Assembly: GCA_003612335.1 (NCBI GenBank)
Contig: RAYO01000005.1
Span: 62,001 to 126,000, forward strand
DNA length: 64,000 bases
Direction: 5' to 3'
Origin: a bacterium 1xD42-67
GTDB lineage: Bacteria; Bacillota; Clostridia; Oscillospirales; Oscillospiraceae
Position 1 is the first letter of the stretch, and each line of letters starts with the position of its first letter. Below are positions 74 to 60,435 of the stretch, in pieces. The notes beneath the pieces were generated by a model. It saw nothing but the letters and a program-made list of their open reading frames with translations, was not told the origin of the DNA and ran no database searches. Made by a program: the position numbers and the translations under genes.

Positions 74-246
74 CTCAGCTCGTCCTCCGGGATGGGGCCG
101 TGCTCCTTCTCAAAATCCCGGATGCACTTCTGGATCAGATACAGGATCTGCCCGCTCATGGAGCGGCCCTCATATTCTGCGATATAGACCAGCTTCCCAT
201 GGTGTTCGCCGCTGATCGTGATACCCAGATGCTTGTCTCGTTTCAA
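70..246 (-). CDS. Small ribbon-helix-helix-like protein, 58 aa
   Basis: An uninterrupted 58-codon frame starts at a TTG codon (246-244) and ends by overlapping the comF-like ATG. An in-frame TAG two codons upstream of the TTG fixes the start; GGTGG lies just 5' of it. The peptide has a short strand-like segment (HLGITIS) followed by two predicted helices containing EYEGRSMSGQILYLI, the general layout of Arc/MetJ-type ribbon-helix-helix DNA-binding proteins. It may regulate itself and the downstream comF-like gene. The family assignment is inferred from pattern only. Confidence 0.55.
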   Translation of the reverse strand: MKRDKHLGITISGEHHGKLVYIAEYEGRSMSGQILYLIQKCIRDFEKEHGPIPEDELR

Positions 247-382
247 AGTCTACCACCGTCCTGATCGTTGTCTGGACGTATAGTATCCTAATTCTCCTCG
301 GATCATCTTGATATCGACTTGATTTAAGTCAAGAAAATACTTGTTCCAAGTAGGCTCTCTCGTCCCGCCCGCAGGCGGCCAA

Positions 383-559
383 GGCCCCTTTTGAAAGGGG
401 CTGTCAGCCGAAGGCTGACTGAGGATCGTATTTTGCGGAGCAAAATGTACGAAGTAAACAAACCTTGCACAGATCTTGTTTGCTTCGCACATTCCGGCTT
501 CGCCGGAATACAATCCTCCGTCACGGGCTTCGCCCGTGCCACCTCCTTTCTAAAGGAGG
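383..559. repeat. Seven-hairpin palindromic repeat element (copy 1)
   Basis: This gene-free stretch holds a string of near-perfect hairpins with tiny loops: 384-401, 403-419 (loop GAA), 430-446 (loop GGA), 447-490 (longer loop), 491-509 (loop TTC), 522-538 (loop TTC) and 542-559. Segments 417-428 and 511-522 are also roughly complementary, so the middle hairpins could sit on a larger stem. The end modules (GCCCCTTTTGAAAGGGGC and CCTCCTTTCTAAAGGAGG) recur at 63312-63370 with a different centre. No coding potential is visible. It resembles REP/BIME or MITE-type non-autonomous elements and lies between two leftward genes. Confidence 0.8.
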
Positions 560-590
560 CTTGGGGACGCAGACCTGCCAGACATACGAA

Positions 591-616
591 CAGCCCGCCG
601 GGGCTCCGGCGGGCTG
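591..616 (-). terminator. Hairpin after the DivIVA-like gene
   Basis: A GC-rich stem (CAGCCCGCCG paired with CGGCGGGCTG, short loop) lies just 3' of the stop codon of the leftward DivIVA-like gene. The T-run after it is weak, so it may be a stabilising stem rather than a strong terminator. Confidence 0.5.
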
Positions 617-623
617 CGGACGG

Positions 624-1337
624 TCATTCCTCCGGGAGGGGCACGGGGGCCTCCACCCGGGATGGATCGGTCCTGTCGTAAGCGGCGGACAGTTCTTCCA
701 GAGCGGTCTCCTGGCTGGCCATGAGCTGGCCCACCTGGTCCAAACAGAGCCCTGCCTTCTCCAGCTCGCTGGCGGCGTGGGAGATGGTGGTCTCCACCTG
801 ACTGCGCAGGGCGTCATACTCCCGGGCCAGCCGTGTGAGCCACTGTTCGGTCTGGCGGCGCAGCTTCTGGGCGTTCCCTTCCGCCTTCTCCTGGATGGCC
901 TGGGCCCGGCGGTGGGCGTCCAGCTCCACGCCGGCGGTGCGCTCCTTCAGCTGGACGAAAGCCTGGGCGTCCGGTTCCAGGGCCTGGGTCCGGGACTGGG
1001 CCTGGTCCCGCTCCCGGCGGACCTCCTCCAGCTCCCGGGCCAGGCCGTCCGCCCTGGTCCGGCTGGCGGACAGCTCCTGTTCGGCCTGGCCCAGACGGTC
1101 CCGCAGGGAATCCCGGTCCCGGAGGGCGGTCTCCAGCTCCCGGCGGACCTCCTCCAGCTGGCGGCGCAGCTCGCCGCTCTCCCTGCGCAGGGCCCCCTCC
1201 TGGCGCTCGGACTCGGCCAGCTGGTCCTGGAGGGCCTGCTGGGCCTGGGCGGACTGTTTCGCCTGCTCCTCCAAAAAGTCCAGCACGTCCTGTTTGTTGA
1301 AGCCGCCGATCGCGGCAGAGCGGAAAGGATGTTCCAT
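624..1337 (-). CDS. DivIVA-domain coiled-coil protein
   Basis: 237 aa. The N-terminus MEHPFRSAAIGGFNKQDV is the signature of clostridial DivIVA-domain proteins, which bind negatively curved membrane at poles and septa and recruit division or sporulation partners. Residues about 25-130 form a long coiled coil rich in E, R and Q with heptad spacing. A second helical region spans about 150-215, followed by a charged, proline-rich tail. The start at 1337 is chosen because GAGGTG lies 9 nt upstream; an in-frame ATG at 1400 has no good site and would add a non-conserved extension. It is a single gene with a hairpin after the stop. Confidence 0.75.
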   Translation of the reverse strand: MEHPFRSAAIGGFNKQDVLDFLEEQAKQSAQAQQALQDQLAESERQEGALRRESGELRRQLEEVRRELETALRDRDSLRDRLGQAEQELSASRTRADGLARELEEVRRERDQAQSRTQALEPDAQAFVQLKERTAGVELDAHRRAQAIQEKAEGNAQKLRRQTEQWLTRLAREYDALRSQVETTISHAASELEKAGLCLDQVGQLMASQETALEELSAAYDRTDPSRVEAPVPLPEE

Positions 1338-1480
1338 AGATCGCGCACCTCGTTCTTTCTGTGTCGGAGCCATTCTAGCACGATCCGCTCCAGATCGCAA
1401 TCACTTTGCGGATATTTCATTGACGGACCGGCGGCCGGGATGGTATACTGGAGCGATATCAGAGAAGGAGGACATCAGCG

Positions 1481-2344
1481 ATGTGGCTGTCCTGCGAGTG
1501 GAAGGACTATGAACTGATCGACTGCGGCCGGGGGGAGAAGCTGGAGAGGTGGGGGGACCAGCTCCTGGTCCGGCCCGACCCCCAGGCGATCTGGGACACC
1601 CCCCGGACCCATCCGGGATGGAAGAGGAACGCCGGCCGCTATGCCCGCTCCTCCACAGGAGGGGGCCAGTGGCAGAATCGGTCTATGCCGGAGCGGTGGA
1701 CAGTGGGTCATAAGGGGCTGACCTTCAACGTCAAGCCCATGAATTTCAAGCACACCGGCCTGTTCCCAGAGCAGGCGGCCAACTGGGACTTCGCCCAGGA
1801 GCAGATCCGCAGCGCCGGCCGGCCGGTGAGCGTCCTCAACCTCTTCGCCTACACCGGCGGGGCCACAGTGGCCTGCGCCGCCGCCGGGGCCTCGGTCTGC
1901 CACGTGGACGCCGCCAAGGGGATGGTCCAGTGGGCCCGGGAGAACGCCAGATCCTCGGGGCTAGAGAGCGCCCCCATCCGGTGGATCGTGGACGACTGCG
2001 CCAAATTCGTCGAGAGGGAGATCCGCCGGGGCCGGCGGTACGACGCCGTCATCATGGATCCGCCCTCCTACGGCCGGGGCCCCACCGGAGAGGTGTGGAA
2101 GCTGGAAGAGCGCCTGTATCCCTTCGTAGAGCTTGTGAGCGGCGTGCTGTCCCCCGATCCGCTGTTCATCATCCTGAACTCCTACACCACCGGGCTGGCG
2201 CCCAGTGTGGTGACTTACATCCTGGAGACGGTCATCTCCAAGCGCTTCGGCGGACATACGGTCTCCGATGAGCTGGGCCTGCCCGTCACCCAGACCGGCC
2301 TGGCCCTCCCCTGCGGCGCCGCCGGCCGGTGGACCAGGGACTGA
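1481..2344 (+). CDS. Class I SAM-dependent methyltransferase, RlmI-like
   Basis: 287 aa. The Rossmann core is clear: motif I in LNLFAYTGGATVACAAAG (about residues 119-136), an acidic residue after the second strand (HVDAAKG), and motif IV MDPPSYGRG (about 192-200). This arrangement, with the preceding FNVKPMNFKHTGLFPEQ, matches the catalytic half of 23S rRNA (cytosine-C5)-methyltransferases of the RlmI/YccW group. The N-terminal PUA domain of E. coli RlmI is absent, as in many Firmicute relatives. Start: AAGGAGG 9 nt before ATG. It diverges from the DivIVA-like gene and is followed by a terminator hairpin. The exact RNA target cannot be read from sequence. Confidence 0.75.
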   Translation: MWLSCEWKDYELIDCGRGEKLERWGDQLLVRPDPQAIWDTPRTHPGWKRNAGRYARSSTGGGQWQNRSMPERWTVGHKGLTFNVKPMNFKHTGLFPEQAANWDFAQEQIRSAGRPVSVLNLFAYTGGATVACAAAGASVCHVDAAKGMVQWARENARSSGLESAPIRWIVDDCAKFVEREIRRGRRYDAVIMDPPSYGRGPTGEVWKLEERLYPFVELVSGVLSPDPLFIILNSYTTGLAPSVVTYILETVISKRFGGHTVSDELGLPVTQTGLALPCGAAGRWTRD

Positions 2345-2348
2345 TCGG

Positions 2349-2375
2349 AAAGCCCCCCCGGCCGGGGGGCTTTTC
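2349..2375 (+). terminator. Rho-independent terminator after the methyltransferase
   Basis: AGCCCCCCC pairs with GGGGGGCT across a GGCC centre, followed by TTTT, directly after the stop codon at 2344. Confidence 0.8.
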
Positions 2376-2439
2376 TGCTGGGATCGGGTTCAAAAGGCCC
2401 CTCGTCCCGCATAGGATGACGGGAGAGGGGGCGGAGCAT

Positions 2440-2979
2440 ATGGAGGAACGGCTGGTCATGCGGGGCGGCGGGACCCTGGCCCTGCGGCAGGAGGGGACGA
2501 AGGTACAGCTCCAGGCGGAGCGGCCCTCCGATGGACGGGGGCTCTACAAAGTGTGGCTCCATGGAGACCAGGGGGGCAAGCTGCTGCTGGGCACCCTGGC
2601 CCCGGAGGGGGGCGTGCTCCGGCTGCGCCGGACCCTGTCGGTGGGGGCTCTGGAGCGGGCGGGCTGCTGGCCTCAGTTCTGGGCGGAGGCCCCGCTGGCC
2701 TTCCCCTTTGCGGTCCAGGAGGGGGGGAGCTGGTACTGTGAGCAGCACCCGGAACGGCTGATGGAGGATCTGGTACTGAAGGGACAGGTGACTGGACCCA
2801 TGCTGTGCCGCCGGGACCGGGACGGCCTGTCTCTGGCGGCTCCCTTCCGCCCCGACGCCCCGGCGCCTCTGTCCGCCCTCCTCTGTTTGGCCCGGGTGGA
2901 GCGCTGGAACGGCCGCCCCCATCTGGTGTGGAGCTTCGACCAGGAGGGCAGGCCAAAGATCCCCTGCGACCCCGCATAA
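2440..2979 (+). CDS. Hypothetical protein, 179 aa
   Basis: I do not recognise the family. The frame is open with codon use like its neighbours. The start at 2440 follows a purine-rich AGGGGGCGGAG site; in-frame upstream ATGs at 2329 and 2416 lack such a site. The product is soluble, without a signal peptide or membrane helix. Its N-terminal half alternates short strands and turns (GLYKVWLHGDQGGKLLLGTL) and is rich in W, L and G, suggesting a beta-rich domain. The C-terminal half contains an AAPFRPDAPAPLSALLCLAR segment. It lies upstream of two coat-like genes and may be sporulation-related, by context only. Confidence 0.55.
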   Translation: MEERLVMRGGGTLALRQEGTKVQLQAERPSDGRGLYKVWLHGDQGGKLLLGTLAPEGGVLRLRRTLSVGALERAGCWPQFWAEAPLAFPFAVQEGGSWYCEQHPERLMEDLVLKGQVTGPMLCRRDRDGLSLAAPFRPDAPAPLSALLCLARVERWNGRPHLVWSFDQEGRPKIPCDPA

Positions 2980-3045
2980 AAAGGAAGGAGATGGACAGAC
3001 TACCTCCAGCAACGGGCCGTGCCCGAATCGAAAGGAGGCAGTTTT

Positions 3046-3231
3046 ATGGCGAATCTGACCACCAAGGAGCTGACAGCCCTGTCCGACCAGCTGGACTTTG
3101 AACGGGTGCTCCACTGCAAGTATCTCTCCGCCGTCCAGGAGAGCCAGGACCAAGAGCTGAAGAGCAGGTTCCAAAGCTGTGCGGAGCAGCATCTGCAGAA
3201 CTACAACACCCTGCTGACCTATCTGCGTTGA
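3046..3231 (+). CDS. Small spore-coat-like helical protein, 61 aa
   Basis: The peptide starts MANLTTKELTALSDQL and is almost entirely helical with conserved-looking Y, H and Q residues, ending NYNTLLTYLR. This resembles the short proteins paired with CotF-family coat proteins in Clostridia. AAAGGAGG lies 8 nt before ATG. The next gene, a CotF-like protein, begins 16 nt downstream with its own site, so the two are probably co-transcribed. The coat assignment rests on this pairing and on the helical pattern. Confidence 0.65.
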   Translation: MANLTTKELTALSDQLDFERVLHCKYLSAVQESQDQELKSRFQSCAEQHLQNYNTLLTYLR

Positions 3232-3247
3232 CGAAGGAGGAACACGG

Positions 3248-3505
3248 ATGAACGACCAGGAACGGATCACCGACCTGCTGTGCAGTGAGAAGAAGATGAG
3301 CGCCAATTACGACACGTTCGCCTCGGAGTGTGTCAACGTCGCCCTGCGGGACGACTTTCTGAACATCTTCAGCCGGGGCCACCAGACCCAGACCGACCTG
3401 TTCAAGCTGGCCCAGTCCAAGGGCTGGTATCAGGTGGAGCAGGCCCCGGCCAGCAAGGTCAGCCAGGCATACACCAGATTCTCCAACCAGCAGCCCACGA
3501 TGTGA
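3248..3505 (+). CDS. CotF-family spore coat protein, 85 aa
   Basis: The protein has the pattern of CotF/ferritin-like coat domains: a first helix ending SEKKMSANYDTFASEC, a second helix (ALRDDFLNIFSRGHQTQTDL), then a tail with the KGWYQVEQA segment seen in many CotF proteins. Such proteins form part of the spore coat or are packed around it. AAGGAGG lies 7 nt before ATG. It forms a two-gene unit with the preceding small gene and ends before a hairpin. Sporulation-stage expression is expected for the family, but I see no clear sigma-E or sigma-K promoter. Confidence 0.75.
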   Translation: MNDQERITDLLCSEKKMSANYDTFASECVNVALRDDFLNIFSRGHQTQTDLFKLAQSKGWYQVEQAPASKVSQAYTRFSNQQPTM

Positions 3506-3510
3506 CCGCT

Positions 3511-3540
3511 CGGGGACGCCGGATCATCCGGCGTCCCCCG
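3511..3540 (+). terminator. Hairpin after the coat-protein pair
   Basis: GGGACGCCGGA pairs with TCCGGCGTCCC around a short loop just past the stop codon at 3505. Only a weak T-stretch follows. Confidence 0.6.
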
Positions 3541-3666
3541 TACTTTGTCGGATCTGGACAGGTAAAATGCGTCCAGCGTCTTGACTTTACAGGAGATACA
3601 CGGTATCATGGGGATGGCTTTATTAAGGGAGAGCCAGAGAAATATAGACAGAAGGGAGATCGGGTG

Positions 3667-3828
3667 ATGAAGAGATTGGTACTTATGGTCGTCGCTGCGG
3701 CGATGATGTGCAGTCTGGCCGGCTGCTCCTCCAAGTGCAAGGAGAGCGGATGCGACGATAAGGCGGAGAAGAACGGCTATTGCCAGACTCACTGGGCGTT
3801 GCATGAGCTGGAAAAGCTGTTCAGCTGA
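3667..3828 (+). CDS. Very small cysteine-rich lipoprotein, 53 aa
   Basis: The peptide begins MKRLVLMVVAAAMMCSLAGC, a classic lipoprotein signal peptide with lipobox LAGC (lipidated Cys20). The mature part is only about 34 residues, with a C-x4-C...C-x2-H arrangement (KCKESGC, GYCQTHWAL) that could bind a metal. GAAGGGAG lies 8 nt upstream of ATG. It is a stand-alone gene between two hairpins. Similar tiny lipoproteins with a CxxxxC...YCxxH tail occur in other Clostridia, but their function is unknown. Confidence 0.7.
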   Translation: MKRLVLMVVAAAMMCSLAGCSSKCKESGCDDKAEKNGYCQTHWALHELEKLFS

Positions 3829-3838
3829 GTGACACGAC

Positions 3839-3876
3839 GATATCCCCTGCTCATCCACGGAGCGGGGGATATCTCA
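3839..3876. terminator. Terminator-like hairpin between the small lipoprotein and the sirtuin gene
   Basis: GATATCCCC pairs with GGGGATATC; inner GCTC/GAGC pairing extends the stem. It lies 11 nt past the lipoprotein stop. Confidence 0.6.
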
Positions 3877-3907
3877 TTTCTGAGAACGGATGACAGGAGG
3901 ACCTTCT

Positions 3908-4633
3908 ATGACAGAACAGATCGAGATGTTACAAAGATGGATCGATGAGAGCGGCACGATCGTCTTTTTCGGCGGCGCCGGAGTGAGCACCGAGAGCGGG
4001 ATCCCCGATTTCCGCAGTGTGGACGGGCTGTATCACCAGAAGTACGCATGGCCTCCGGAGCAGATCCTGAGCCGCACTTTCTTCGACGCCCAGCCAGAGG
4101 AGTTCTACCGCTTCTACCGGGACAAGATGCTCTGCCTGGACGCCCAGCCCAACGCCGCCCACAAAAAGCTGGCGGAGCTGGAGGCGGCGGGCAGGCTGCG
4201 CAGCGTTGTCACCCAGAACATCGACGGGCTCCACCAGCTGGCGGGGTCCAAACGGGTCTGGGAGCTCCATGGGTCGGTACACCGGAACTACTGCATGAGA
4301 TGCCATGAGCCCTTCTCGGTGACGGAGCTCAAAGGGGGGACAGGGGTGCCCAGATGTGCCTGCGGCGGCGTCATCAAGCCCGATGTGGTCCTCTACGAGG
4401 AGGGACTGGACAGCTCCATCATCGAGGGGGCGGTGGCGGACATCCAGGCGGCGGACCTGCTCATTATCGGCGGCACCTCTCTGGCGGTCTACCCTGCCGC
4501 CGGGCTCATCAACTACTACCGGGGCTCCCGGCTGGTGCTGATCAACAAGAGCCCCACCCCCTATGACGGCCGGGCCAGTCTGGCCATCAACGCCCCGATC
4601 GGCCAGATCCTGGGCCAGATCCAGGTCCGATGA
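3908..4633 (+). CDS. cobB: Sirtuin, NAD-dependent protein deacylase
   Basis: 241 aa. Sirtuin signatures are present in order: GGAGVSTESGIPDFRS (22-37, NAD binding), TQNIDGLHQLAGS (102-114), ELHGS with catalytic His121, a zinc site formed by Cys129, Cys132, Cys150 and Cys152, and GGTSLAVYPAAG near residue 195. The enzyme removes acyl groups from lysines using NAD and makes nicotinamide and O-acyl-ADP-ribose. CAGGAGG lies 8 nt before the chosen ATG; an upstream in-frame ATG at 3890 lacks a site. The stop overlaps the next gene (ATGA), implying translational coupling with the WYL regulator. The zinc pair spacing CxC is shorter than the usual CxxC. Confidence 0.92.
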   Translation: MTEQIEMLQRWIDESGTIVFFGGAGVSTESGIPDFRSVDGLYHQKYAWPPEQILSRTFFDAQPEEFYRFYRDKMLCLDAQPNAAHKKLAELEAAGRLRSVVTQNIDGLHQLAGSKRVWELHGSVHRNYCMRCHEPFSVTELKGGTGVPRCACGGVIKPDVVLYEEGLDSSIIEGAVADIQAADLLIIGGTSLAVYPAAGLINYYRGSRLVLINKSPTPYDGRASLAINAPIGQILGQIQVR

Positions 4634-35176: not shown

Positions 35177-35205
35177 TTGTCTATATTGTCAGATCATGAT
35201 ATACT
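35177..35205 (+). promoter_or_regulatory. Promoter for the 83-aa membrane protein
   Basis: TTGTCT (35177-35182), exact 17-nt spacer, TATACT (35200-35205), 58 nt before the ATG. Confidence 0.65.
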
Positions 35206-35262
35206 TTGTCGTGAAAGTAACTGGAATAGATCAATGAAACAGTATTGAAAGGAGAAGATATC

Positions 35263-35514
35263 ATGGCCTATTGCGGAAGCAGCTGTCCTTATCATTGGCA
35301 TGATGATGATTGCGAATATTGCAGTGCCAGAGGCGATGAGGTCATCGATCTCAAAAAATATGACTATGATACATGCCCCTACTATCAACGATATCGTAAG
35401 GAGAATCATGGGACAGAGAGCAGTGGATCAGGTTCAGACAGCGAGGGGTCCTTTTTTGCGCTCTTAGTGCTTGGCGCTATTTTGTACGTTGCCTATAGGA
35501 TGTTTTTCGGCTGA
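35263..35514 (+). CDS. Small cysteine-rich tail-anchored protein, 83 aa
   Basis: The N-terminal half is rich in Cys, His and Asp (YCGSSCPYHWHDDDCEYCSA ... DTCPYYQRY), a probable zinc site of about six cysteines. A Gly/Ser spacer follows, then a C-terminal membrane helix (about 63-80) ending MFFG. The metal-binding part would face the cytosol if tail-anchored. Base composition is noticeably more AT-rich than the neighbours. AAAGGAGAAG precedes ATG. It has its own promoter and a strong terminator, so it is monocistronic. The family is unknown. Confidence 0.75.
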   Translation: MAYCGSSCPYHWHDDDCEYCSARGDEVIDLKKYDYDTCPYYQRYRKENHGTESSGSGSDSEGSFFALLVLGAILYVAYRMFFG

Positions 35515-35530
35515 TCTCAGTCTATACTTC

Positions 35531-35563
35531 AAAAGAGCCTCCTGCTCAGGAGGCTCTTTTTTT
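35531..35563 (+). terminator. Strong Rho-independent terminator
   Basis: AAAAGAGCCTCCTG pairs with CAGGAGGCTCTTTT around a short loop and runs into seven T residues. Confidence 0.9.
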
Positions 35564-35648
35564 ATAACAAACGTATCATACTTTACATTTTTCTGACAAG
35601 ACCTCTGATAAGATCTTTGTGATAAACCATCAAGGAGGTATCTTTCCT

Positions 35649-36905
35649 ATGGGAATGACGATGACACAGAAGATCTTAGCCAAGCACGCCGGGCTGGACA
35701 AGGTGGAGCCAGGCCAGCTGATCGAGGCCAAGCTGGACCTGGTCCTGGGCAACGACATCACCACCCCGGTAGCCATTACCGAGTTCGAAAAGGCGGGCTT
35801 CACCCAGATCTTCGACCGGGCACGGATCGCGGTCGTCCTGGACCACTACACCCCCTGTAAGGACATCAAGTCCGCCCAGCTGTGCAAGCAGGCCCGGGAG
35901 TTCGCTCATAAGCATCAGATCGTCAACTTTTTCGATGTGGGCCAGATGGGGGTAGAGCACGCCCTGATCCCCGAGAAGGGGCTGGCCGCCCCCGGCGAGG
36001 TGATCGTAGGGGCCGACTCCCACACCTGCACCTACGGCGCTCTGGGGGCCTTCTCTACAGGGATCGGTTCCACCGACATGGCCGCGGCCATGGCCACCGG
36101 CCTGTTGTGGTTCAAAGTGCCCTCTGCCATCAAGGTGACCTTGAAGGGCAAACTCCAGCCCCACATCTCAGGCAAGGATGTGATCCTCCACCTGATCGGT
36201 CAGATCGGGGTGGACGGCGCCCTGTATCAGTCCCTGGAGTTTGCAGGGGAGGGGGTGGCCTCCCTCTCCATGGACGACCGGTTCACCATCGCCAATATGG
36301 CCATCGAGGCCGGCGGCAAGAATGGGATCTTCCCTGTGGACGAGAAGACCATGGAATACATCAACGGCCGGGTGGACCGCCCCTGTGAGGCTTTCTCTGC
36401 CGATCCGAATGCCGTCTACGACCGGGAGGTGGTCATCGACCTGGACGAGCTGGAGCCCACTGTAGCCCTGCCCCACCTGCCCGAGAACACCAAGACGGTG
36501 ACTGAGGCGGCGGGGATGCCCATCGATCAGGTGATCATCGGGTCCTGCACCAACGGCAGGATCGGTGATCTGCGGATCGCCGCTGCCATCATGAAGGGCA
36601 AAAAAGTTGCACCCAATGTCCGCTGTGTGGTCATCCCCGCCACCCAGGCGATCGTCCTCCAGGCCATGGAGGAGGGGCTCATCCAGACCTTCATCGAGGC
36701 GGGCGCGGCGGTGTCCACCCCCACCTGCGGCCCCTGCCTGGGGGGACACATGGGGGTGATGGCCGAGGGAGAGCGCACCGTCTCCACCACCAACCGGAAT
36801 TTTGTGGGCCGTATGGGCCACACGACCTCCGAGATCATCCTGGCTTCCCCCGCTGTGGCCGCCGCCTCCGCCATCGCCGGCTGCGTGGCCGACCCCAGAA
36901 GGTGA
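35649..36905 (+). CDS. leuC: 3-isopropylmalate dehydratase, large subunit
   Basis: 419 aa, the short LeuC type of Clostridia and archaea. Iron-sulfur ligands are in [20 protein letters not shown] (one Cys) and [13 protein letters not shown] (two Cys), with [20 protein letters not shown] also typical. With LeuD it isomerises 2-isopropylmalate to 3-isopropylmalate in leucine synthesis. AAGGAGG lies 11 nt before the chosen ATG; a second ATG two codons later is equally possible. It is the first gene of the leuC-leuD-leuB unit; no leuA is in the window. Confidence 0.96.
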
Positions 36906-36912
36906 GATAGCG

Positions 36913-37347
36913 ATGAGGGATCTGAAGGACGATGTAGTAAACACCGCCCACAACTTCGTCCAGAACATGCAGCAGTATTTTGACGCTCCCCTGGACTACT
37001 CCATCGAGAGCCTGGAGGAGATCGATAAGATGCTGGACGGGCTGGGCAAGCGGCGGGAGGAGTTGAAGGAGGAGGCCTTTTTCGACCTCTACTCCATGAC
37101 CGGCTGTTATGTCTTTGAGACGGCCCGCCGGAGCTACGGCGGGGAGTATTTTTGGATCGAGGAGGAACAGCAGCCCGGTCTGGCGGCGGGACATCCCGAC
37201 TTCCTCGTAGTCATCAAGGCATGGGAGAAGGTCAAGGGCCGCCTCATCAAAGGGGAGGAGGACAACATCCCCTTCTACATCGCCGGCTATCGGGAGCATA
37301 TCGAGATCGGCAAGACAAGACCGGGCTACCATGTGATCATCGTATAA
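36913..37347 (+). CDS. Unknown protein inserted between leuC and leuD, 144 aa (DUF3806-like)
   Basis: The segment APLDYSIESLEEIDKMLDGL, followed by a helix with SMTGCYVFETARRSYGGEYF, resembles DUF3806-type domains (LDYS.ES..LD..L then GAY.GE.....GG.W). No signal peptide or membrane helix. It starts 7 nt after the leuC stop with GGTGAG and ends 18 nt before leuD, so it is read with the leu genes. It has no known part in leucine synthesis; small soluble proteins of this kind are common as immunity-like or accessory cargo. Confidence 0.7.
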   Translation: MRDLKDDVVNTAHNFVQNMQQYFDAPLDYSIESLEEIDKMLDGLGKRREELKEEAFFDLYSMTGCYVFETARRSYGGEYFWIEEEQQPGLAAGHPDFLVVIKAWEKVKGRLIKGEEDNIPFYIAGYREHIEIGKTRPGYHVIIV

Positions 37348-37365
37348 GGAAAGGAAGAATCTGCT

Positions 37366-37851
37366 ATGAAGGTTTATAAATACGGCGCCAATGTGGACAC
37401 CGACGTGATCATCCCGGCGCGGCATCTGAACGACCCCTCTCCGGCGGCTCTGGCCAGCCACTGCATGGAGGACATCGACGAGAGCTTCGCCTCCACTGTG
37501 GAGGCGGGGGACATCATCGTGGCCGGGCCCAACTTCGGCTGCGGCTCCAGCCGGGAGCACGCTCCTCTGGCCATCAAGGCCTGCGATGTGAGGTGCGTGA
37601 TCGCCCCCTCCTTCGCCCGCATCTTTTACCGCAACGCCATCAACATCGGTCTGCCCATCGTGGAGTGCCCCCAGGCCGCTGAGGAGATCCAGGCCGGGGA
37701 CCAGGTAGAGGTGGACTTCACCAGCGGTACCATCACCGATGTGACCCAGGGCAAGACCTGGAAGGCCGCTCCCTTCCCGGAGTTCATCGACGGCATCATC
37801 AAAAGCGGCGGTCTGCTCAACTCCCTGAAGGAGCGAGGGGTCGCGAGATGA
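37366..37851 (+). CDS. leuD: 3-isopropylmalate dehydratase, small subunit
   Basis: 161 aa, the short swivel-domain form that pairs with this type of LeuC. NVDTDVIIPARHLN, GPNFGCGSSREHAPLAIKAC and FARIFYRNAINIGLP are the family marks; they complete the substrate site of the dehydratase. It starts 18 nt after the inserted gene with AAAGGAAGAA. The C-terminus GGLLNSLKERGVAR is notable because a second copy of this coding end (GGLLNSLKERDWR) survives at 38363. The stop overlaps the next gene (ATGA). Confidence 0.96.
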   Translation: MKVYKYGANVDTDVIIPARHLNDPSPAALASHCMEDIDESFASTVEAGDIIVAGPNFGCGSSREHAPLAIKACDVRCVIAPSFARIFYRNAINIGLPIVECPQAAEEIQAGDQVEVDFTSGTITDVTQGKTWKAAPFPEFIDGIIKSGGLLNSLKERGVAR

Positions 37852-38213
37852 GCGCAGATTACGATTTTTGGAAGTATAAGAAGGGGGCGGCCCACGATGA
37901 TCAGCGGGTCTATGCCGCCCTCTCTGACGGGGAGGCTCTGGAGGGATTGCAGGAGCTTCCGGTAGAGAAGATCCGGGAGCGTATCCGTGAGGTGTTCTCC
38001 GGCTGGGATTGGCCGGACAAGGATAACTGCGAAGATCCGGCGGGAAATGGAAGTTTTTCCCTGTATACCACGCCCCAGTTTGTCCGCTTTGACTGCTATA
38101 GCATGTCGGAGCAGAACATCAACTTGTTTTTGGATATCTTAACTGAGGAATTTGGCTGTCCCCTGTACGACCCGCAGATCTCCACCCGGTTCGATTCTTG
38201 GACGGAGGTGTAG
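37848..38213 (+). CDS. Unknown protein downstream of leuD, 121 aa, paralogue of the 58118 gene
   Basis: The whole protein aligns by eye with the C-terminal half of the gene at 58118-58720. Shared marks are FWKxKxGxA near the N-terminus, a GL/AV-x-E-LP-x-E-x-I segment, FSxWDW in the middle and FGCxxYxP at the end. No signal peptide, membrane helix or known catalytic motif. ATG overlaps the leuD stop. Spread of the same domain into two housekeeping operons suggests a mobile accessory or immunity-type family. Function unknown. Confidence 0.72.
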   Translation: MSADYDFWKYKKGAAHDDQRVYAALSDGEALEGLQELPVEKIRERIREVFSGWDWPDKDNCEDPAGNGSFSLYTTPQFVRFDCYSMSEQNINLFLDILTEEFGCPLYDPQISTRFDSWTEV

Positions 38214-38216
38214 CGG

Positions 38217-38384
38217 ATGCAGGCCATCGTGATCGGCATGGGCTCCCGAAAGCTGGAGGAGCTGGATATCCGTTACGATCTGTCCGATCGGATCGAGACG
38301 TGGTCTGGAGACGCGATGAAGGATAGCGGCTATGACTGCACCGACGAGCAGAGCTTCAGACTGGCGGCCTGCTCAACTCCTTGA
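38217..38384 (+). pseudogene. Truncated paralogue of the following 215-aa gene
   Basis: A 55-codon frame with a good ribosome site (GGAGGTG) encodes MQAIVIGMGSRKLEELDIRY and on through DLSDRIETWSGDAMKDSG. It matches residues about 111-160 of the 38403 gene product (QSIIISMDSRKMENPDLDIR; TLPDRIEEWSQGAVQDNG). The N-terminal 110 residues and the C-terminal 55 are missing. The match stops where the sequence turns into a relic of the leuD 3' end. It is best explained as a duplicated or recombined fragment. Confidence 0.75.
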
Positions 38385-38404
38385 AAGAGAGGGACTGGAG
38401 AGAT
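38363..38404 (+). pseudogene. Relic of the leuD 3' end
   Basis: Read in frame from GGCGGCCTGCTCAACTCC, this stretch encodes GGLLNSLKERDWR, almost the same as the C-terminus of the intact leuD at 37807-37851 (GGLLNSLKERGVAR). At DNA level about 24 of the first 28 bases agree. It lies directly before the ATG of the 215-aa gene, exactly where a leuD end would lie if that gene had once followed leuD. It is a scar of a recombination or duplication event. Confidence 0.75.
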
Positions 38405-39050
38405 GAAAGCACCTAAACGAACGCCGATGACCTTTGGACCAGGGGAGAAGGTGATTTTCCTGGGTATCGACGAAGCCGCTGTTCGGGTGCACATCGAGCT
38501 GGCGGAGATCCCGTTGAGCTGTACCTTGGAGGGGGATGACCGGTCCCTCTGTGCACAGGTCCGGGAGACTGCGGTGCGGGAGGGGCTGAAAGACCTGTCT
38601 TGTTTTTTCCCAGGCAGCGCAGTCACCGTCCAGGCCCTGGTGGGAGCGTTGGAGCCGCTTGGATTTTCCTGTGAGCTCCGCCAAGATCTTCTGGAGGAAG
38701 ACCGCCTGATCCGCCTGCGGTTCCAGAAGACACAGTCCATCATCATCAGCATGGACTCCCGCAAGATGGAGAATCCGGACTTGGATATCCGCTACACCCT
38801 GCCCGACCGGATCGAGGAGTGGTCCCAGGGGGCGGTCCAGGACAACGGTCATGACTATGTGGACGAGGAGGGCCATATCCTGGCCGTCTGGCTCAAGACC
38901 GAGGACGCGGAGGGCTGGTGGCCCAAGATCGTGGAGCTTTTGAAAACCGAGAAGTTCGAGGACAACGACTTGTCTCAGTCCGCCCAGGTCCTGGTATCCG
39001 AAACGCCCAACGCCGAGCTGGCCGGCTGCCGCCAGGTCTGGCCGGAGTGA
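38403..39050 (+). CDS. Unknown protein in the leu operon, 215 aa
   Basis: The family is not recognised. The N-terminal half (1-105) alternates strands and helices (KVIFLGIDEAAVRVHIELAE; LVGALEPLGFSCELRQDLLE). The C-terminal half contains LDIRYTLPDRIEEWSQGAVQ and NGHDYVDEEGHILAVWL, followed by a helix and a final strand. Part of the C-terminal half is duplicated as the fragment at 38217. No signal peptide. It begins 13 nt after the relic of leuD and is followed 10 nt later by another unknown gene. Immunity-like cargo is a reasonable guess, not shown. Confidence 0.68.
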   Translation: MKAPKRTPMTFGPGEKVIFLGIDEAAVRVHIELAEIPLSCTLEGDDRSLCAQVRETAVREGLKDLSCFFPGSAVTVQALVGALEPLGFSCELRQDLLEEDRLIRLRFQKTQSIIISMDSRKMENPDLDIRYTLPDRIEEWSQGAVQDNGHDYVDEEGHILAVWLKTEDAEGWWPKIVELLKTEKFEDNDLSQSAQVLVSETPNAELAGCRQVWPE

Positions 39051-39060
39051 GGAGTGAGTG

Positions 39061-39582
39061 ATGGAAGCAGAATATCGAAATCGTCTGTTGGACCTGCTGG
39101 ACAAGATCCCCAGGGGCGTGCCCGCCGGGTGGGAGAAGGAGACCTTCGCGGTGGGCGGGCTGATGTATCTGGGCTTTTCCAACCTCCAGACCGAAAAGCT
39201 GGTGGTCATCTCCTCTCAAGGGCAGAGCGTCATCGACTGCCGGACATGGGAAAAGGTCTGGTGTACGGAGTGCTATGACGAACAGGACCTGACTGCCCGC
39301 GCCGGGCCCCTGGGGAACGAGGCGATCCCCATCGCCGGGGAGGGGGGAGGCGGTCTGCGAAGGTCTAACCCGTCGGGGGATGGCCTGGACATGGCCGCGC
39401 CCTTCTGGCCCAAGGAGCAGATCGTCTTCATGCCCCGATCCGTCTCCTGGTATCAGCATCCGGAGGCATGTACCATGATCTTCGATGACTATGCGCCGCT
39501 GGCCTTTGGATTCAGCCGGTGCGGCCGCTATATAGCTGTTGGGACATCCAGCGAGGTGGATATTTTTAGAAGAGGAGAATAG
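39061..39582 (+). CDS. Unknown protein upstream of leuB, 173 aa
   Basis: The family is not recognised. MEAEYRNRLLDLLDKIPRGV and AVGGLMYLGFSNLQTEKLVV at the start, and GFSRCGRYIAVGTSSEVDIF at the end, look like a soluble alpha/beta protein, perhaps of the SUKH/SMI1-like or another immunity class. This is inference from general shape only. GAGGAGTGAG precedes ATG at 39061 (a GTG one codon earlier is possible). It ends 4 nt before leuB, whose ribosome site lies inside this gene, so the two are tightly linked. Confidence 0.65.
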   Translation: MEAEYRNRLLDLLDKIPRGVPAGWEKETFAVGGLMYLGFSNLQTEKLVVISSQGQSVIDCRTWEKVWCTECYDEQDLTARAGPLGNEAIPIAGEGGGGLRRSNPSGDGLDMAAPFWPKEQIVFMPRSVSWYQHPEACTMIFDDYAPLAFGFSRCGRYIAVGTSSEVDIFRRGE

Positions 39583-39586
39583 ACCT

Positions 39587-40663
39587 ATGGAATATAAGAT
39601 CGCTCTCATCAAGGGAGATGGGATCGGCCCCGAGGTGGTAGGGGAGGCCGTCAAGGTGATGGATACCATCGGCGCGAAGTTTGGCCACAAGTTCGAGTAT
39701 GTGGACGTCCTCATGGGCGGCTGTGCCATCGACGCTGTGGGCAAGAGCTACCCCGACGGCACCGCCGAGAGATGCAAAGAGTGCGACGCCGTCCTTCTCG
39801 GGGCGGTGGGCGGACCCAAGTGGGGCCACGCCTCCGACCCGGACAAGCGCCCCGAGACCGCCCTGCTGTCCATCCGCAAGGACCTGGGGCTGTACGCCAA
39901 CCTCCGCCCCGCCGCCCTGCGGCCCGCACTGGCCGACGCCTGTCCCCTGAAAAAGGAGACAGCGGACAAAGGGATCGACCTGATGATCGTCCGGGAGCTG
40001 ACCGGCGGGATCTACTTTGGCAAGCGGGAGCGGTATACCACTGAGGACAGGGGAGAGGAGGCCGCCGACCGGATGGCCTACTCCCAGATGGAGATCGAGC
40101 GCATCGGCCGCAGGGCCTTCGAGCTGGCCCGGCTGCGGGGGAAGAAGCTGGCCAGTGTGGACAAGGCCAACGTGCTGGAGACCTCGCGCCTGTGGCGGCA
40201 GATCATGCACCGCCTGGCAGAGGAGTACCCGGACGTGGCCTATGAGGACGTGCTGGTGGACAACGCCGCCATGCAGCTGGTCCGGGACCCGGGGCAGTTC
40301 GACGTGGTGGTCACCGAGAACATGTTCGGCGATATCCTCTCCGACGAGGCGTCTATGATCACCGGCTCCATCGGCCTGCTGCCCTCCGCCTCTATCGGCG
40401 ACGCCGCCCCCGGGCTGTATGAGCCGATCCACGGCTCCGCCCCCGACATCGCCGGTCAGGACAAGGCCAACCCCATCGCCACCATCCTGTCGGTGGCCAT
40501 GATGTTCCGCTACTCCTTCGCCCTGCCCGCCGAGGCGAAGGCCATCGAGGACGCGGTGGATGCCGTCCTCAACGAGGGCTGGCGCACCGCCGATATCGCC
40601 AAGTCCGGCGAGGAAGTGGTCGGCACCGTCAAAATGGGTGAGCTGATTCGGGAGAAGCTGTGA
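39587..40663 (+). CDS. leuB: 3-isopropylmalate dehydrogenase
   Basis: 358 aa. It oxidises and decarboxylates 3-isopropylmalate with NAD to give 2-oxoisocaproate, the precursor of leucine. Signatures are IKGDGIGPEVVGEAVKVM, the substrate loop ETALLSIRKDLGLYANLRPA, VRELTGGIYFG, and the metal-site region VTENMFGDILSDEASMITGS followed by YEPIHGSAPDIAGQDKANP. AGAGGAGAAT lies 7 nt before ATG. It is the last gene of the leu unit; terminator at 40717. Confidence 0.97.
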   Translation: MEYKIALIKGDGIGPEVVGEAVKVMDTIGAKFGHKFEYVDVLMGGCAIDAVGKSYPDGTAERCKECDAVLLGAVGGPKWGHASDPDKRPETALLSIRKDLGLYANLRPAALRPALADACPLKKETADKGIDLMIVRELTGGIYFGKRERYTTEDRGEEAADRMAYSQMEIERIGRRAFELARLRGKKLASVDKANVLETSRLWRQIMHRLAEEYPDVAYEDVLVDNAAMQLVRDPGQFDVVVTENMFGDILSDEASMITGSIGLLPSASIGDAAPGLYEPIHGSAPDIAGQDKANPIATILSVAMMFRYSFALPAEAKAIEDAVDAVLNEGWRTADIAKSGEEVVGTVKMGELIREKL

Positions 40664-40716
40664 GCTGTGCACCAAAAGGCCCCTCATAAAGGTTTGTAAA
40701 AGACCTTAAAAAAGAA

Positions 40717-40745
40717 AGTGCCGGCCCCAAAAAGGAGCCGGCACT
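40717..40745 (+). terminator. Terminator of the leu unit
   Basis: AGTGCCGGC-CCC pairs with GGA-GCCGGCACT across an A-rich loop, followed by GTTTG. Confidence 0.75.
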
Positions 40746-40808
40746 GTTTGATCTGTGATAGGATGAACCTGTTATGAAAAATCGATCACAGAAGCTGGAG
40801 GTATCATT

Positions 40809-41360
40809 ATGTTTTGGAAACTGCGGATGCACCCCGGAGAAGAGGAACGAAAGGTATACGCCGAAGCGGAGGAATACGGAATCATCTGCAACGTACAGGA
40901 CTTACAGGGAATTGCTGAACGGTTGGATAAATATATAAAAAAGACAAAAGTGCGTGGAGCAGGGCTGAACAAATACATTGGGCGCAGCCATCTCGTGAAC
41001 GGCGGTGAAAACTGGTATGAGTGGAGCATAGGTGTTTCATACTCAAAAGAGGGATGTTTAAGTAATGAGCAAGGCCGGTTGTGGTATTTTGAGTTAATGC
41101 CAAATCGGCACTATCATCTGGAGCAAGATATATCAGAGGAGGTATACGAATTTCCCGGACGAAAAGATGTGCTGTACTACTTTATTTTGGTTAAATATTA
41201 CTGGTATTATGAAGAAAATGGCAAGATCATATGTGCCGATTCTGATGACGCGCGAAAAAAGCGGGAGAAGTTTTTTCAAGGATTATTTGACTGCATTGGA
41301 TTTCCGGTAGAGGTCTTGTATACTTACCCCAAGGATTCCAACGGTATCTTCGATAAATAG
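40809..41360 (+). CDS. AT-rich hypothetical protein, 183 aa
   Basis: The family is not recognised. It is soluble, rich in Tyr, Trp, Glu and Lys (NWYEWSIGVSYSKEGCLSNE; YYFILVKYYWYYEENGKIIC). Base composition and codon choice are clearly more AT-rich than the flanking leuB and purB, pointing to recent transfer. GGAGG lies 7 nt before ATG. It is followed 13 nt later by another AT-rich gene, and the two look like one acquired unit; an immunity or toxin-related pair is possible but unproven. Confidence 0.65.
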   Translation: MFWKLRMHPGEEERKVYAEAEEYGIICNVQDLQGIAERLDKYIKKTKVRGAGLNKYIGRSHLVNGGENWYEWSIGVSYSKEGCLSNEQGRLWYFELMPNRHYHLEQDISEEVYEFPGRKDVLYYFILVKYYWYYEENGKIICADSDDARKKREKFFQGLFDCIGFPVEVLYTYPKDSNGIFDK

Positions 41361-41373
41361 AAGGAGGAAGTGC

Positions 41374-41787
41374 GTGAACAAGAGTGAATGGGTGGCAGAT
41401 GCTGTCAAAAAGCTGGAGCATATCTATTGTGCGAAGTGCGGACGATGTGGGAAGCGGCTTGTGTATACAGTGACGACCGCCGACACAGATATGGTTCCGA
41501 TCTATTGCGGCAGTGCCTATGACCCGAAAAATAAAGTGCTTGCGGTTGCTGAGCTGACCAGCGACGAATATGATCATGGGTGTGAAGGCCGTCTGCCTGA
41601 GCGGATGGCACAGATCTTTGGAGGCCACTTTGTCTATTTGAACTACAGGTCAAAATGCCCGTTTTGCGGAGGCGACCTGAAAGAGAGAAACACTGTTTCA
41701 TGGGATGCCTATTTGGGCGGGAAAGGGAAGGCGTTTATTGTGTTTTATGATGAACATGATCAACAGAACGTGAAAGAAATTTTATAA
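41374..41787 (+). CDS. AT-rich zinc-ribbon-like hypothetical protein, 137 aa
   Basis: GTG start at 41374 with AAGGAGGAAG 5 nt upstream. Two CxxC-type knuckles occur near the N-terminus (YCAKCGRCGKRL) and one near residue 95 (CPFCGGDL), so a zinc ribbon is likely. The middle segment MVPIYCGSAYDPKNKVLAVA is of unknown type. Like the preceding gene, it is AT-rich relative to its neighbours and probably co-transcribed with it. No function can be named. Confidence 0.65.
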   Translation: MNKSEWVADAVKKLEHIYCAKCGRCGKRLVYTVTTADTDMVPIYCGSAYDPKNKVLAVAELTSDEYDHGCEGRLPERMAQIFGGHFVYLNYRSKCPFCGGDLKERNTVSWDAYLGGKGKAFIVFYDEHDQQNVKEIL

Positions 41788-41848
41788 AGGCTTCCTTAAA
41801 CTTTTGTGAAAATTTTCCCCAGGGGTGGCAAACGGGGGAGAAATGCGG

Positions 41849-58117: not shown

Positions 58118-58720
58118 ATGCTGCCGGAGCACTATGAAGAGGTCAAGGAACTGATCGAACGGATCGCCGACTACTATGGCCCTGTGGAGGAGAATCCGCT
58201 GCTGGAGGAACAGACGGCGGAGATGCGCCGTCTGACCGGCCGGGATCAGGAGACGGAGGAGGTGGGGAACTGGTGCTTTGAGTACTGGAGCCGCGCCTCC
58301 CTGGACGAGACGGCCTATTTCTTCTTCCATGGCGACCTGCCGGAGAGGGAGGAGATCGAGCTGGTCTTCTGGAAGCTGAAGCCGGGGGTGGCTATGGAGC
58401 CTCAGGCCCTCCATGAGAAGCTGCGGTATATCAAGACCTGCGCCAAGGTCAAGGCGGTGGAGCTCCTTCCGATGGAGGAGATCGTATCTCGCTTCAAGGA
58501 GCGGTTTTCAGACTGGGACTGGCAGGAGGACCACGACCTCCCCACCACCTTCCGAAGAGCGCACCCGGAGGAGCCCTGGCACGTGGAGGAGATCATGCTC
58601 TTCGGCTATGAGGAGAAGATGCTGTCCGTCACCTGCACCAACGTGCTGGAGGCGGATCGGATGGACATACTTCAAATGATGGAGGGCTTTGGATGTTCCA
58701 CCTATCGGCCGGAGGAGTAG
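58118..58720 (+). CDS. Unknown protein after murF, about 200 aa, paralogue of the 37848 gene
   Basis: The C-terminal half (FWKLKPGVAMEPQALHEKLR ... FSDWDW ... FGCSTYRP) aligns over its whole length with the 121-aa gene in the leu operon. The N-terminal half, with NWCFEYWSRASLDETAYFFF and EREEIELVFW, is absent from that copy. AAAGGAAG lies 7 nt before ATG at 58118; alternatives at 58097 (overlapping the murF stop) and 58112 exist. No signal peptide. The same domain in two housekeeping operons points to a mobile accessory family, perhaps immunity proteins. Confidence 0.7.
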   Translation: MLPEHYEEVKELIERIADYYGPVEENPLLEEQTAEMRRLTGRDQETEEVGNWCFEYWSRASLDETAYFFFHGDLPEREEIELVFWKLKPGVAMEPQALHEKLRYIKTCAKVKAVELLPMEEIVSRFKERFSDWDWQEDHDLPTTFRRAHPEEPWHVEEIMLFGYEEKMLSVTCTNVLEADRMDILQMMEGFGCSTYRPEE

Positions 58721-58726
58721 AGGAAC

Positions 58727-58790
58727 GCGCCGCAGGCGCTCGATATATGCAGCGCATATAAGTAGGGGGCGGTCTCTGTGCCGCTCCGTG
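58727..58790 (+). repeat. Tandem short-loop hairpins plus GTAGGGGGCGG repeat (copy B)
   Basis: GCGCC-gca-GGCGC (58727-58739) and TATATGC-agc-GCATATA (58744-58760) are 3-nt-loop hairpins like those of the element at 383-559. They are followed directly by GTAGGGGGCGGTCTCTGTGC and on to 58790, nearly the same as 8041-8070. It lies between two unknown genes. Confidence 0.65.
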
Positions 58791-58809
58791 ATAAAAAGAA
58801 GGTATCGCC

Positions 58810-60435
58810 GTGATCTATGACCGCGCCCCCTTCGCCGCCCACCTGGACGGCCTGGGGAAGGAGCTGAAAAAACAGGCCTTTTGGAAGACCGCCCTCTTCG
58901 GGACGGTCCTTTTGGAGCGACAGTGGCCGGTATATGAGCGGCTGGCTGTGGGCCGGGAGTGGGGTGCCGCCAAGGAGGTCCGCAAGGTGTTGGACCGCCT
59001 GTGGAAGGGTGTCCCCACCGGGATGCGGATCGGGGACAGCTTCTGGATGCTCCTGGAGGAAAACCAGGTGGAGCCCGTCACCGAGCCCTGGGACCCGGCG
59101 GCGGCGCTGACGGTAAGCGGTGCTTTGCGGCTGATGGAGATCTTTCGGGAGAAGGACAAAAAAGCGGCGGGGGAGCTGGCCGAGAGGAACCTGATGTTCC
59201 TGGCTCAGGCCCTGTCCGTCTGCGGGGAGGAGGGCAATTTTACCCACCCCCTGTTCCAGGCGGAGCTGGACTTCCAAGCCGCCCTGTGCGCCCGGCTGTG
59301 CGGGGTGCCCAACAGCGAAAAAGTGTTGTTTGTCAACGGCTGTAAGGGAGAAGTGGTTGACGGCATTATGGGGAAGCTGTGGTTCCCCGATTACCCGGAT
59401 CACAAGCCCCTCAAGCGGAAGGCGAAGAAGGCGGGGGAGATTCGTTACTCCCATATCCGCTACGATGAGTGGTTTGCGAAGCTGCGGGAAAAGGACGAGG
59501 ACGGCCTGGATGCCTGGGACCACATCAAAGAAGAGTTACAACAGAACGATGCTTGGCTTACCTGGCAGGAACGGTGGCCAAATGATAGCCTGGACCAACA
59601 GAGTAACATCAGGCGATGGCCCATGCCGGAGGGTCTGGCTGATTTTTACGGCTGTGAGAGCCTGTCCCTGTACCTGGACGCGGAGCACTGCTACGGCTGC
59701 CGGAAGGACACAGATCTGACGCGGGGTCTACTGTGGCTGGCGGCCCGGTCCCAGGAGGCGTGCTATGCGCTGCTGGAGAGGGGCTGGCCCTGCTCCAACT
59801 GGCTGGACTACCAAAACAGCATGACCAAAAACCTCTTTGTCCCCGCATCGTATGCCATCTGCGCCGGGGACTGGGAGCTGGCGGAGCACCTGCTGGCTCG
59901 ATACCACAGGCCCATCAAGCTGCGGACCAATACCGCCCAGTGGCTGTTCCCCTGGGATACCCGCGTCTGGCTGGCAATCATCCGGGGCGATGATGAAAAG
60001 GCCGTCTTTCTGATGGAACAGGGCGCCAGAAGCAAGCGGCCGCCCACCAAGGACGAACAGCTTTGGCCCCACCTGTACCCCTGGTATGGATGGGAGGACG
60101 CCTGCAAGGTGTTCCGGATGCTGCTGGACCGGGACGCCGCCGGTCTGCGCAAACACATTCTGTCCGGCATTCGGGGGATGCGGAGCAGCTATGAGCAGAT
60201 GTGCTCTACCTTGGGAAATCATCAGATCGCCCTGCTGAAGCTGGCCCGCCGCCGGGGGATGGAGCTGGACCTGCCCCGGGTGGTGGAGATCCCCGACGGC
60301 ATCTGGGAGGATGTGCCCCTGGACGGGGAGAAGTGGAAGCTCCCCGGTCAGGCTGTTCTGGACCGGGCCCTGGGTCCCGACGGGGACAAGCTGCTGGCCC
60401 AATGGAAAAAGCTGGCGGAGGAGAAAACGAAATAA
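58810..60435 (+). CDS. Two-part unknown protein: DUF416-like N-terminus and immunity-like C-terminus, 541 aa
   Basis: GTG start at 58810. Residues 1-110 (LFGTVLLERQWPVYERLAVG; KEVRKVLDRLWKGVPTGMRI) resemble DUF416/YjaG-type helical proteins. The remaining part has helical repeats such as LLWLAARSQEACYALLERGW and AICAGDWELAEHLLARYHRP, and DDEKAVFLMEQGARSKRPP, similar in style to Imm49-like or repeat-type immunity proteins. The frame also changes composition near 59320-59600 (more AT). No signal peptide. It lies between the FWK/WDW gene and an ABC-F gene. Families inferred by pattern only. Confidence 0.6.
   Translation: MIYDRAPFAAHLDGLGKELKKQAFWKTALFGTVLLERQWPVYERLAVGREWGAAKEVRKVLDRLWKGVPTGMRIGDSFWMLLEENQVEPVTEPWDPAAALTVSGALRLMEIFREKDKKAAGELAERNLMFLAQALSVCGEEGNFTHPLFQAELDFQAALCARLCGVPNSEKVLFVNGCKGEVVDGIMGKLWFPDYPDHKPLKRKAKKAGEIRYSHIRYDEWFAKLREKDEDGLDAWDHIKEELQQNDAWLTWQERWPNDSLDQQSNIRRWPMPEGLADFYGCESLSLYLDAEHCYGCRKDTDLTRGLLWLAARSQEACYALLERGWPCSNWLDYQNSMTKNLFVPASYAICAGDWELAEHLLARYHRPIKLRTNTAQWLFPWDTRVWLAIIRGDDEKAVFLMEQGARSKRPPTKDEQLWPHLYPWYGWEDACKVFRMLLDRDAAGLRKHILSGIRGMRSSYEQMCSTLGNHQIALLKLARRRGMELDLPRVVEIPDGIWEDVPLDGEKWKLPGQAVLDRALGPDGDKLLAQWKKLAEEKTK

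Follow-up and report, generated by a model that had tools for sequence, protein, structure and literature searches.

Why should the leu genes of a gut bacterium be interrupted by a series of small unknown genes? The question is raised by the leuC-leuD-leuB region of bacterium 1xD42-67 (Oscillospiraceae), found in a stretch of 64,000 nucleotides (contig RAYO01000005.1, positions 62,001 to 126,000; hereafter, the window) that belongs to a 3.56 Mb genome and to a contig of 191,744 bases (C46 of the working set, in which G numbers denote genomes and L numbers loci). Four intact genes of unknown function and a fragment lie among the three leu genes (35649-40663); all are on the + strand, and successive genes are separated by 7, 18, -4, 3, 18, 10 and 4 nt. 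This layout is the one described in the initial annotation, which was made from the sequence alone and likened the unknown genes to captured immunity genes. Comparison with related genomes indicated that the leu region is very probably a set of variable cargo slots with exchanged content, not a fixed operon. What the cargo does is a more tentative matter that is weighed below. The features of the region are as follows.

35649..36905, + strand: leuC, isopropylmalate isomerase large subunit (PF00330, E 2e-106), the upstream border of the first slot
36913..37347, + strand: cargo A, 144 residues, isoelectric point (pI) 4.85, distantly DUF3806-like, between leuC and leuD
37366..37851, + strand: leuD, isopropylmalate isomerase small subunit (PF00694, E 2e-18)
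37848..38213, + strand: cargo B, 121 residues, pI 4.24, its start overlapping the leuD stop (ATGA)
38217..38384, + strand: the fragment, 55 codons, half a D gene running into a copy of the leuD tail
38217..38362, + strand: decayed 5′ half of a D gene, 53% identical to D
38363..38405, + strand: scar, a copy of the leuD 3′-end, nearest to the leuD tail of G026
38403..39050, + strand: cargo C-D, 215 residues, an N-terminal domain C (about 108 residues) fused to D (about 107 residues, ferredoxin-like model)
39061..39582, + strand: cargo E, 173 residues, of a wider family with a C-terminal WD40-like blade
39587..40663, + strand: leuB, isopropylmalate dehydrogenase (PF00180, E 5e-135), the downstream border of the slot

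The count of four intact genes and a fragment stood, and two details had been missed: the fragment joins the 5′ half of a D gene to a copied leuD 3′-end, and the 215-residue gene was formed by fusion and has another D as its second half.

Content of the slots across the genus

The genus set consisted of 64 genomes, that of the window included and several of them incomplete drafts. The leuD gene was found in 57, and the leu region was compared in all of these (60 loci). The leuD-leuB junction was readable at 54 loci from 52 genomes (G017 and G057 have two each), since the contigs of G026, G028, G037, G040 and G051 and the leuC contig of G063 end within this slot. The leuC-leuD junction was readable at 55 loci; those left out (G017b, G033, G056, G057b and G063b) have no leuC on the contig.

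No recognised cargo is present at the leuD-leuB junction of 34 loci (32 of the 52 genomes), and the other 20 genomes carry nine different configurations. The commonest is D alone (seven), B is found at this junction in four genomes, and the arrangement of B, half D, C-D and E is unique to the window. A 4-nt overlap (ATGA) joins leuD to leuB at 26 of the 34 empty loci, leuB starting on the last base of leuD's last sense codon, and B or C-D, where they follow leuD, overlap it by the same ATGA. At the leuC-leuD junction, A is present at seven loci, a remnant of A at one (G032) and no recognised cargo at the remaining 47, with gaps that vary from 23 to 675 nt. The initial annotation had proposed a comparison of content and spacing across strains, and had named beforehand the invariant conservation of the four genes across the family as the outcome contrary to its proposal. 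Over the 57 genomes the content varies, and such conservation is not what they show.

In total, six cargo families (A to F) are distributed over the two slots, and their order is fixed: A; leuD; B, C, D, F, E; leuB; and then X and Y, two patchy genes described below. Such constancy of order favours a shared loaded ancestor from which genes were later lost. In a leu-gene tree of 51 genomes, which was built from the leu genes themselves and has 20 of its 48 inner forks open, the minimum number of changes is 5 among 7 carriers for A, 5 among 6 for E and 4 among 19 for D. Some gaps in the first slot hold sequences of another kind. Those of four species (L067, L059, L069 and L108) have in common a sequence that translates as CAKLRFASGVFG, and that of L072 contains a different internal repeat; these are perhaps small mobile repeats.

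Exchange between species

The exchange of single genes can be followed in D. In a comparison of two species, G007 and G054, the DNA identity is 93.6% in leuC, 93.2% in leuD, 92.5% in leuB and 94.2% downstream, and only 69.5% in D, here a gene of 106 codons. At the protein level the identities are 98.6% (leuC), 96.9% (leuD), 94.1% (leuB) and 64.4% (D). Evolutionary rate alone cannot explain the low value for D because L135, a locus outside the genus set, is distant from G054 in leuD and leuB (79.6% protein identity each), yet its D is close (86.5%). In its leuB, L135 is 89.9% identical to G001, which has no D, and the leu region of L135 may also be mosaic. The D tree places L135 within the genus and leaves G007 and G023 outside a set to which the more distant L134 and L140 belong; its support is moderate. 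The D alignments and tree were prepared without L147, in which D is frameshifted, and the D of L090 entered the tree twice at two lengths.

Downstream of leuB, the following features lie before purB.

40717..40745: hairpin 3′ of leuB, a pattern that is terminator-like on the - strand
40809..41360, + strand: patchy gene X, 183 residues, G+C content at third codon positions (GC3) 0.48 (leuB, 0.89), with synonymous divergence (dS) between species below that of its neighbours
41374..41787, + strand: patchy gene Y, 137 residues, GC3 0.53, weak zinc-ribbon-like matches

Both X and Y are A+T-rich and patchy in distribution (40809-41787). The dS of X between the window and G056, G048 and G010 is 0.13-0.25, and that of leuB in the same comparisons is 0.35-0.61; the low values suggest recent transfer of X. 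The leu transcript may end at the hairpin. Promoter-like and terminator-like patterns are about as frequent in the region as in shuffled sequences, two terminator-like hits on the + strand lie inside A and C-D, and no leader RNA was found at the Rfam cut-off between 32000 and 42000.

Scars of recombination

In the fragment, 5′ D sequence is followed by 43 nt that resemble the end of leuD, located directly before the C-D gene. Five other genomes have C-D immediately after leuD, and in these the end of leuD overlaps the start of C-D. The leuD tail that best matches the copy is that of G026 (score 35), where C-D lies directly 3′ of leuD; the leuD tails of other genomes score at most 29 and the window's own leuD 25. 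On the simplest reading, recombination joined a block composed of the leuD end and C-D, with or without E, from a G026-like donor into a leuD-B-D array, breaking D; the sequence behind this reading is short (43 nt). It is hardly credible that the scar is an assembly artefact. The exact junction between the D half and the leuD tail is found only in G000, as an artefact might be, but it lies within a contig of 191,744 bases, the half-gene is decayed as in an old event and not a fresh misjoin, and none of the other findings rests on it. Other traces are found elsewhere in the genus. In G046 the initial codons of C-D run into gene F, and in the leuC-leuD gap of G032 (L085) only the last part of A is left, with an S-adenosylmethionine methyltransferase gene after it, a case of gene turnover in the first slot.

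Selection on the cargo

The median ratios of nonsynonymous to synonymous substitution (dN/dS) between species were 0.19 for A, 0.09 for B, 0.21 for C, 0.16 for D, 0.17 for E, 0.19 for F, 0.14 for X and 0.13 for Y, where the values of B, F, X and Y come from 3 to 6 pairs (five for B). Those of the leu genes were 0.09-0.13. The cargo is under purifying selection, and A, B, C, D and E appear to be real genes; the cargo genes seem to be kept for the function of their proteins.

Relatives in other operons and arrays

A scan of the named genome collection with a profile of D identified 27 loci, 18 in genomes of the genus set and nine outside. The arrangement leuD-D-leuB is also present outside the genus set in L134, L135 and L140. 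In L142, L143 and L147, D lies between ylqF and rnhB, and the NCBIfam cut-off for YlqF was reached in all three; the D of L147 (8001-8307) carries a frameshift. The remaining cases are L144, where D is flanked by dut and an amidohydrolase gene; L146, where it has no close partner on the same strand; and L145, where it lies beside DUF6756 and a weak SUKH-like gene (E 0.0039, below the cut-off). These three genes of L145 are part of a run of short unknown genes (107-4485) that looks like a polyimmunity array.

A second gene with a B domain, B2, is located elsewhere in the window.

58118..58720, + strand: B2, 200 residues, the window's other gene with a B domain, 17 nt from the end of murF
58810..60435, + strand: gene of 541 codons 3′ of B2, with DUF416 exactly at the cut-off, a weak Imm49 match (E 0.029) and no NCBIfam match

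These two genes make up a second cargo-like cluster (58118-60435), flanked by murF and an ABC-F gene. The murF-B2 arrangement is also found in G002 and G020, the only other genomes among the 64 with a full-length B2, and 2 of 11 genomes of another genus have B2 flanked by a DUF512 gene and der.

Relatives of E are found 3′ of HAD-type genes in two other genera, in L159, where the HAD-type gene was confirmed by Pfam, and in L160, where it was recognised by eye and matched nothing from Pfam at E 1e-10. Plasmids of Flammeovirga, Spartinivicinus, Erwinia and Streptomyces carry them too (22 records). The E family has relatives in Bacteroidota, Pseudomonadota and Actinomycetota. Two of the five plasmid regions with E relatives are runs of short co-oriented genes. 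In these arrays (L189, 5700-12942; L188, 6234-9773) most genes are unknown, and DUF6210, DUF1493 and Hfx_Cass5 are among the neighbours. A scan for core sites of integron attC-like elements, which was crude and could miss divergent sites, gave no hits in L188 and two in L189 (one site, on both strands), within the range of shuffled sequences. A genome of another genus, G148, has relatives of B, B2, E and X at four places (L159, L172, L173 and L185), none of them near leu genes.

Thus D, B2 and E are found repeatedly inside or behind unrelated housekeeping genes. The initial annotation had offered a new link to leucine metabolism as its alternative, and the presence of D relatives in unrelated housekeeping operons argues against a leucine-specific role for D.

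Protein families and predicted folds

Searches with A, B, the fragment, C-D and E gave nothing useful in Pfam (best E 0.27) or NCBIfam (best E 0.029), and A, B, C-D and E had no useful PADLOC or PHROG match. A did not match Pfam DUF3806 (PF12713), remaining below the gathering cut-off; its alignment to DUF3806-like proteins spans 114 columns (98.2% probability in hhalign), and the intermediate L158 scores 23.5 against DUF3806, for which the cut-off is 21. Judged by sequence comparison, A is a distant relative of DUF3806 and not a member by the Pfam cut-off. The structural model of C-D is good (predicted local distance difference test, pLDDT, 86; predicted template modelling score, pTM, 0.77), and its D half is predicted to adopt a beta-alpha-beta-beta-alpha-beta, ferredoxin-like arrangement with middling structural matches of many functions. 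No relationship was detectable between C and B. In the wider family of E the C-terminus includes a stretch resembling WD40, with a best E of 7e-7 over 27 positions; no stretch passes alone. The pI of A, B, the 215-residue protein and E is 4.2-4.9. Acidity is a mild feature only, given that 32% of the 65 called proteins of the window have a pI below 5 and that F is basic.

Possible function of the cargo

What was observed, namely the slots, their variable content, the gene-bounded exchange of D, the recombination scar, purifying selection and the other housekeeping homes, led us to propose the following. In this group of Oscillospiraceae the coupled leu genes have small passenger genes between them, which would use the promoter of the host operon and its translational coupling; co-transcription is presumed. 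Species gain and lose the passengers and exchange them with one another, the simplest route being recombination in the flanking conserved leu genes. Each passenger alone would bind and block one kind of toxin, or another attack, from neighbouring bacteria, and expression with a housekeeping operon would keep protection up without the operon of the toxin. Stated in full, the leuC-leuD and leuD-leuB junctions are cargo slots of exchanged passengers that are most likely orphan-immunity-like, a proposition to which we give a little less than an even chance. The immunity function taken by itself is quite possible, if doubtful. Orphan immunity is favoured because the single small genes are allelic, patchy, exchangeable and independent of their neighbours, and because SUKH-like and Imm49-like sequences, both below their cut-offs, adjoin relatives of D and B2. 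The hints in question are weak: the SUKH-like gene beside D in the L145 array, and the Imm49 match beside B2 in the separate murF-B2-541 cluster. As these matches do not reach the cut-off and no toxin partner was found, the full statement is held below an even chance.

Several observations weigh against immunity. The proteins A, B, C-D, E, X and Y have no Imm or SUKH match in Pfam or NCBIfam, and the SUKH-like protein of L145 and the 541-residue protein have no NCBIfam match. The search of toxin-immunity profiles suggested by the initial annotation yielded no trustworthy Imm, SUKH, PADLOC or PHROG match for the leu-operon proteins, so that no recognised immunity family is present among A, B, C-D and E. 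No toxin was recognised beside the relatives that were read, mostly by eye and with few homologues in the sampled genomes, and an LXG toxin model had no match in the window genome (the Bacillus subtilis control was positive). The predicted ferredoxin-like and WD40-like folds are uninformative on function, and F (pI 9.2) is unlike the acidic A, B, C-D and E. Fast evolution was reported for rAID immunity genes (PMC12247911); the dN/dS values of the cargo give no sign of it, which speaks mildly against an arms race. In addition, the fixed gene order and the D genes at the leuD-leuB junction of three loci outside the genus set mean that the pattern may in part have been inherited from far back, with subsequent loss. 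Of the earlier idea of captured immunity genes, the variable, exchanged passengers in a housekeeping operon held up; immunity itself found neither a curated family nor a toxin partner.

Other roles have to be considered. The cargo could consist of defence or antidote genes other than immunity to bacterial toxins (anti-phage genes, toxin-antitoxin remnants or stress proteins). Small, soluble, patchy and exchangeable single genes suit several kinds of defence, and E relatives are found in plasmid arrays, one of them adjoining an Hfx_Cass5 cassette protein and lying downstream of a restriction-modification locus. However, neither PADLOC nor PHROG gave a useful match, the viral contigs searched gave no relatives of D, E or F, and we regard this explanation as unlikely, though a serious contender. 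It is quite unlikely that the cargo genes are close to neutral and came by drift into strongly expressed operons, where chance preserves them. Their patchy presence, the lack of known domains and the cases of decay (the D half-gene, the A remnant and the frameshifted D of L147) would fit such drift, but purifying selection was seen in all eight families tested, and D was replaced by a different intact allele rather than decaying.

That the cargo helps to make leucine, with D perhaps acting as a small ACT-like regulator or as a chaperone of LeuCD or LeuB, is improbable, slightly more so than neutral drift. D follows leuD directly, after B or within C-D in 21 of the 64 genus genomes and in L134, L135 and L140, and its model is ferredoxin-like, with aspartate kinase chains among the middling matches; the same arrangement also occurs in ACT domains. 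Nonetheless, 32 of 52 genomes do without recognised cargo at the leuD-leuB junction, D relatives lie in ylqF-rnhB and dut operons, and D was swapped independently of nearly identical leu genes. A, B and E have no sequence link to amino-acid enzymes, in agreement with the initial statement that none of the genes resembles one.

Relation to known systems and significance

The heterogeneous polyimmunity loci of polymorphic toxin systems (PMC3482391) resemble the leu cargo in consisting of co-oriented, small, unrelated genes that vary between close relatives and have no recognised toxins adjoining. The leu slots are likewise co-oriented variable arrays of unrelated small genes; in contrast to those loci, their cargo matches no curated immunity family and is dispersed between the genes of a biosynthetic operon. 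The leu slots differ from rAID (PMC12247911) in that neither a tyrosine recombinase nor a shared intergenic motif was found, exchange apparently proceeds via the host operon's own genes, the phylum is another and evolution is purifying rather than fast. None of the ten intact genes between 35649 and 43347 encodes a tyrosine recombinase (nine judged by Pfam and the tenth, purB, by eye). The only between-gene repeat recognised in the window from 35200 to 41800 is the copied leuD tail, motifs not having been sought across all loci. In firmicute type VII secretion systems, tandem immunity genes are described (PMC9484751) as changing in repertoire through recombination at homologous stretches that leaves mosaic genes, which is like the leu slots; those clusters hold paralogues, whereas the families in the leu slots are unrelated to one another and lie within a housekeeping operon. 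As kinds of system, polyimmunity loci and rAID are known. Searches of the open-access literature, which leaves out most subscription papers, gave no description of such cargo distributed over the genes of an amino-acid operon, and no paper naming DUF3806.

More generally, housekeeping operons of these gut Clostridia might be docking slots for scattered, recombinase-free orphan immunity or defence genes, the flanking enzymes providing promoter, coupling and homology arms, and still-unrecognised families being swapped singly between species. We consider this broader proposal plausible but tentative, a shade below immunity itself. If it is true, common gut Clostridia keep part of their defence repertoire in metabolic operons, out of reach of searches aimed at defence islands or toxin loci, and moving such cargo requires no dedicated recombinase. 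New immunity families could then also be sought among short genes that separate coupled pairs of housekeeping genes and have been exchanged between close relatives. Whatever the truth about immunity, this is a clear case of an amino-acid operon serving as a hot spot for gene exchange.

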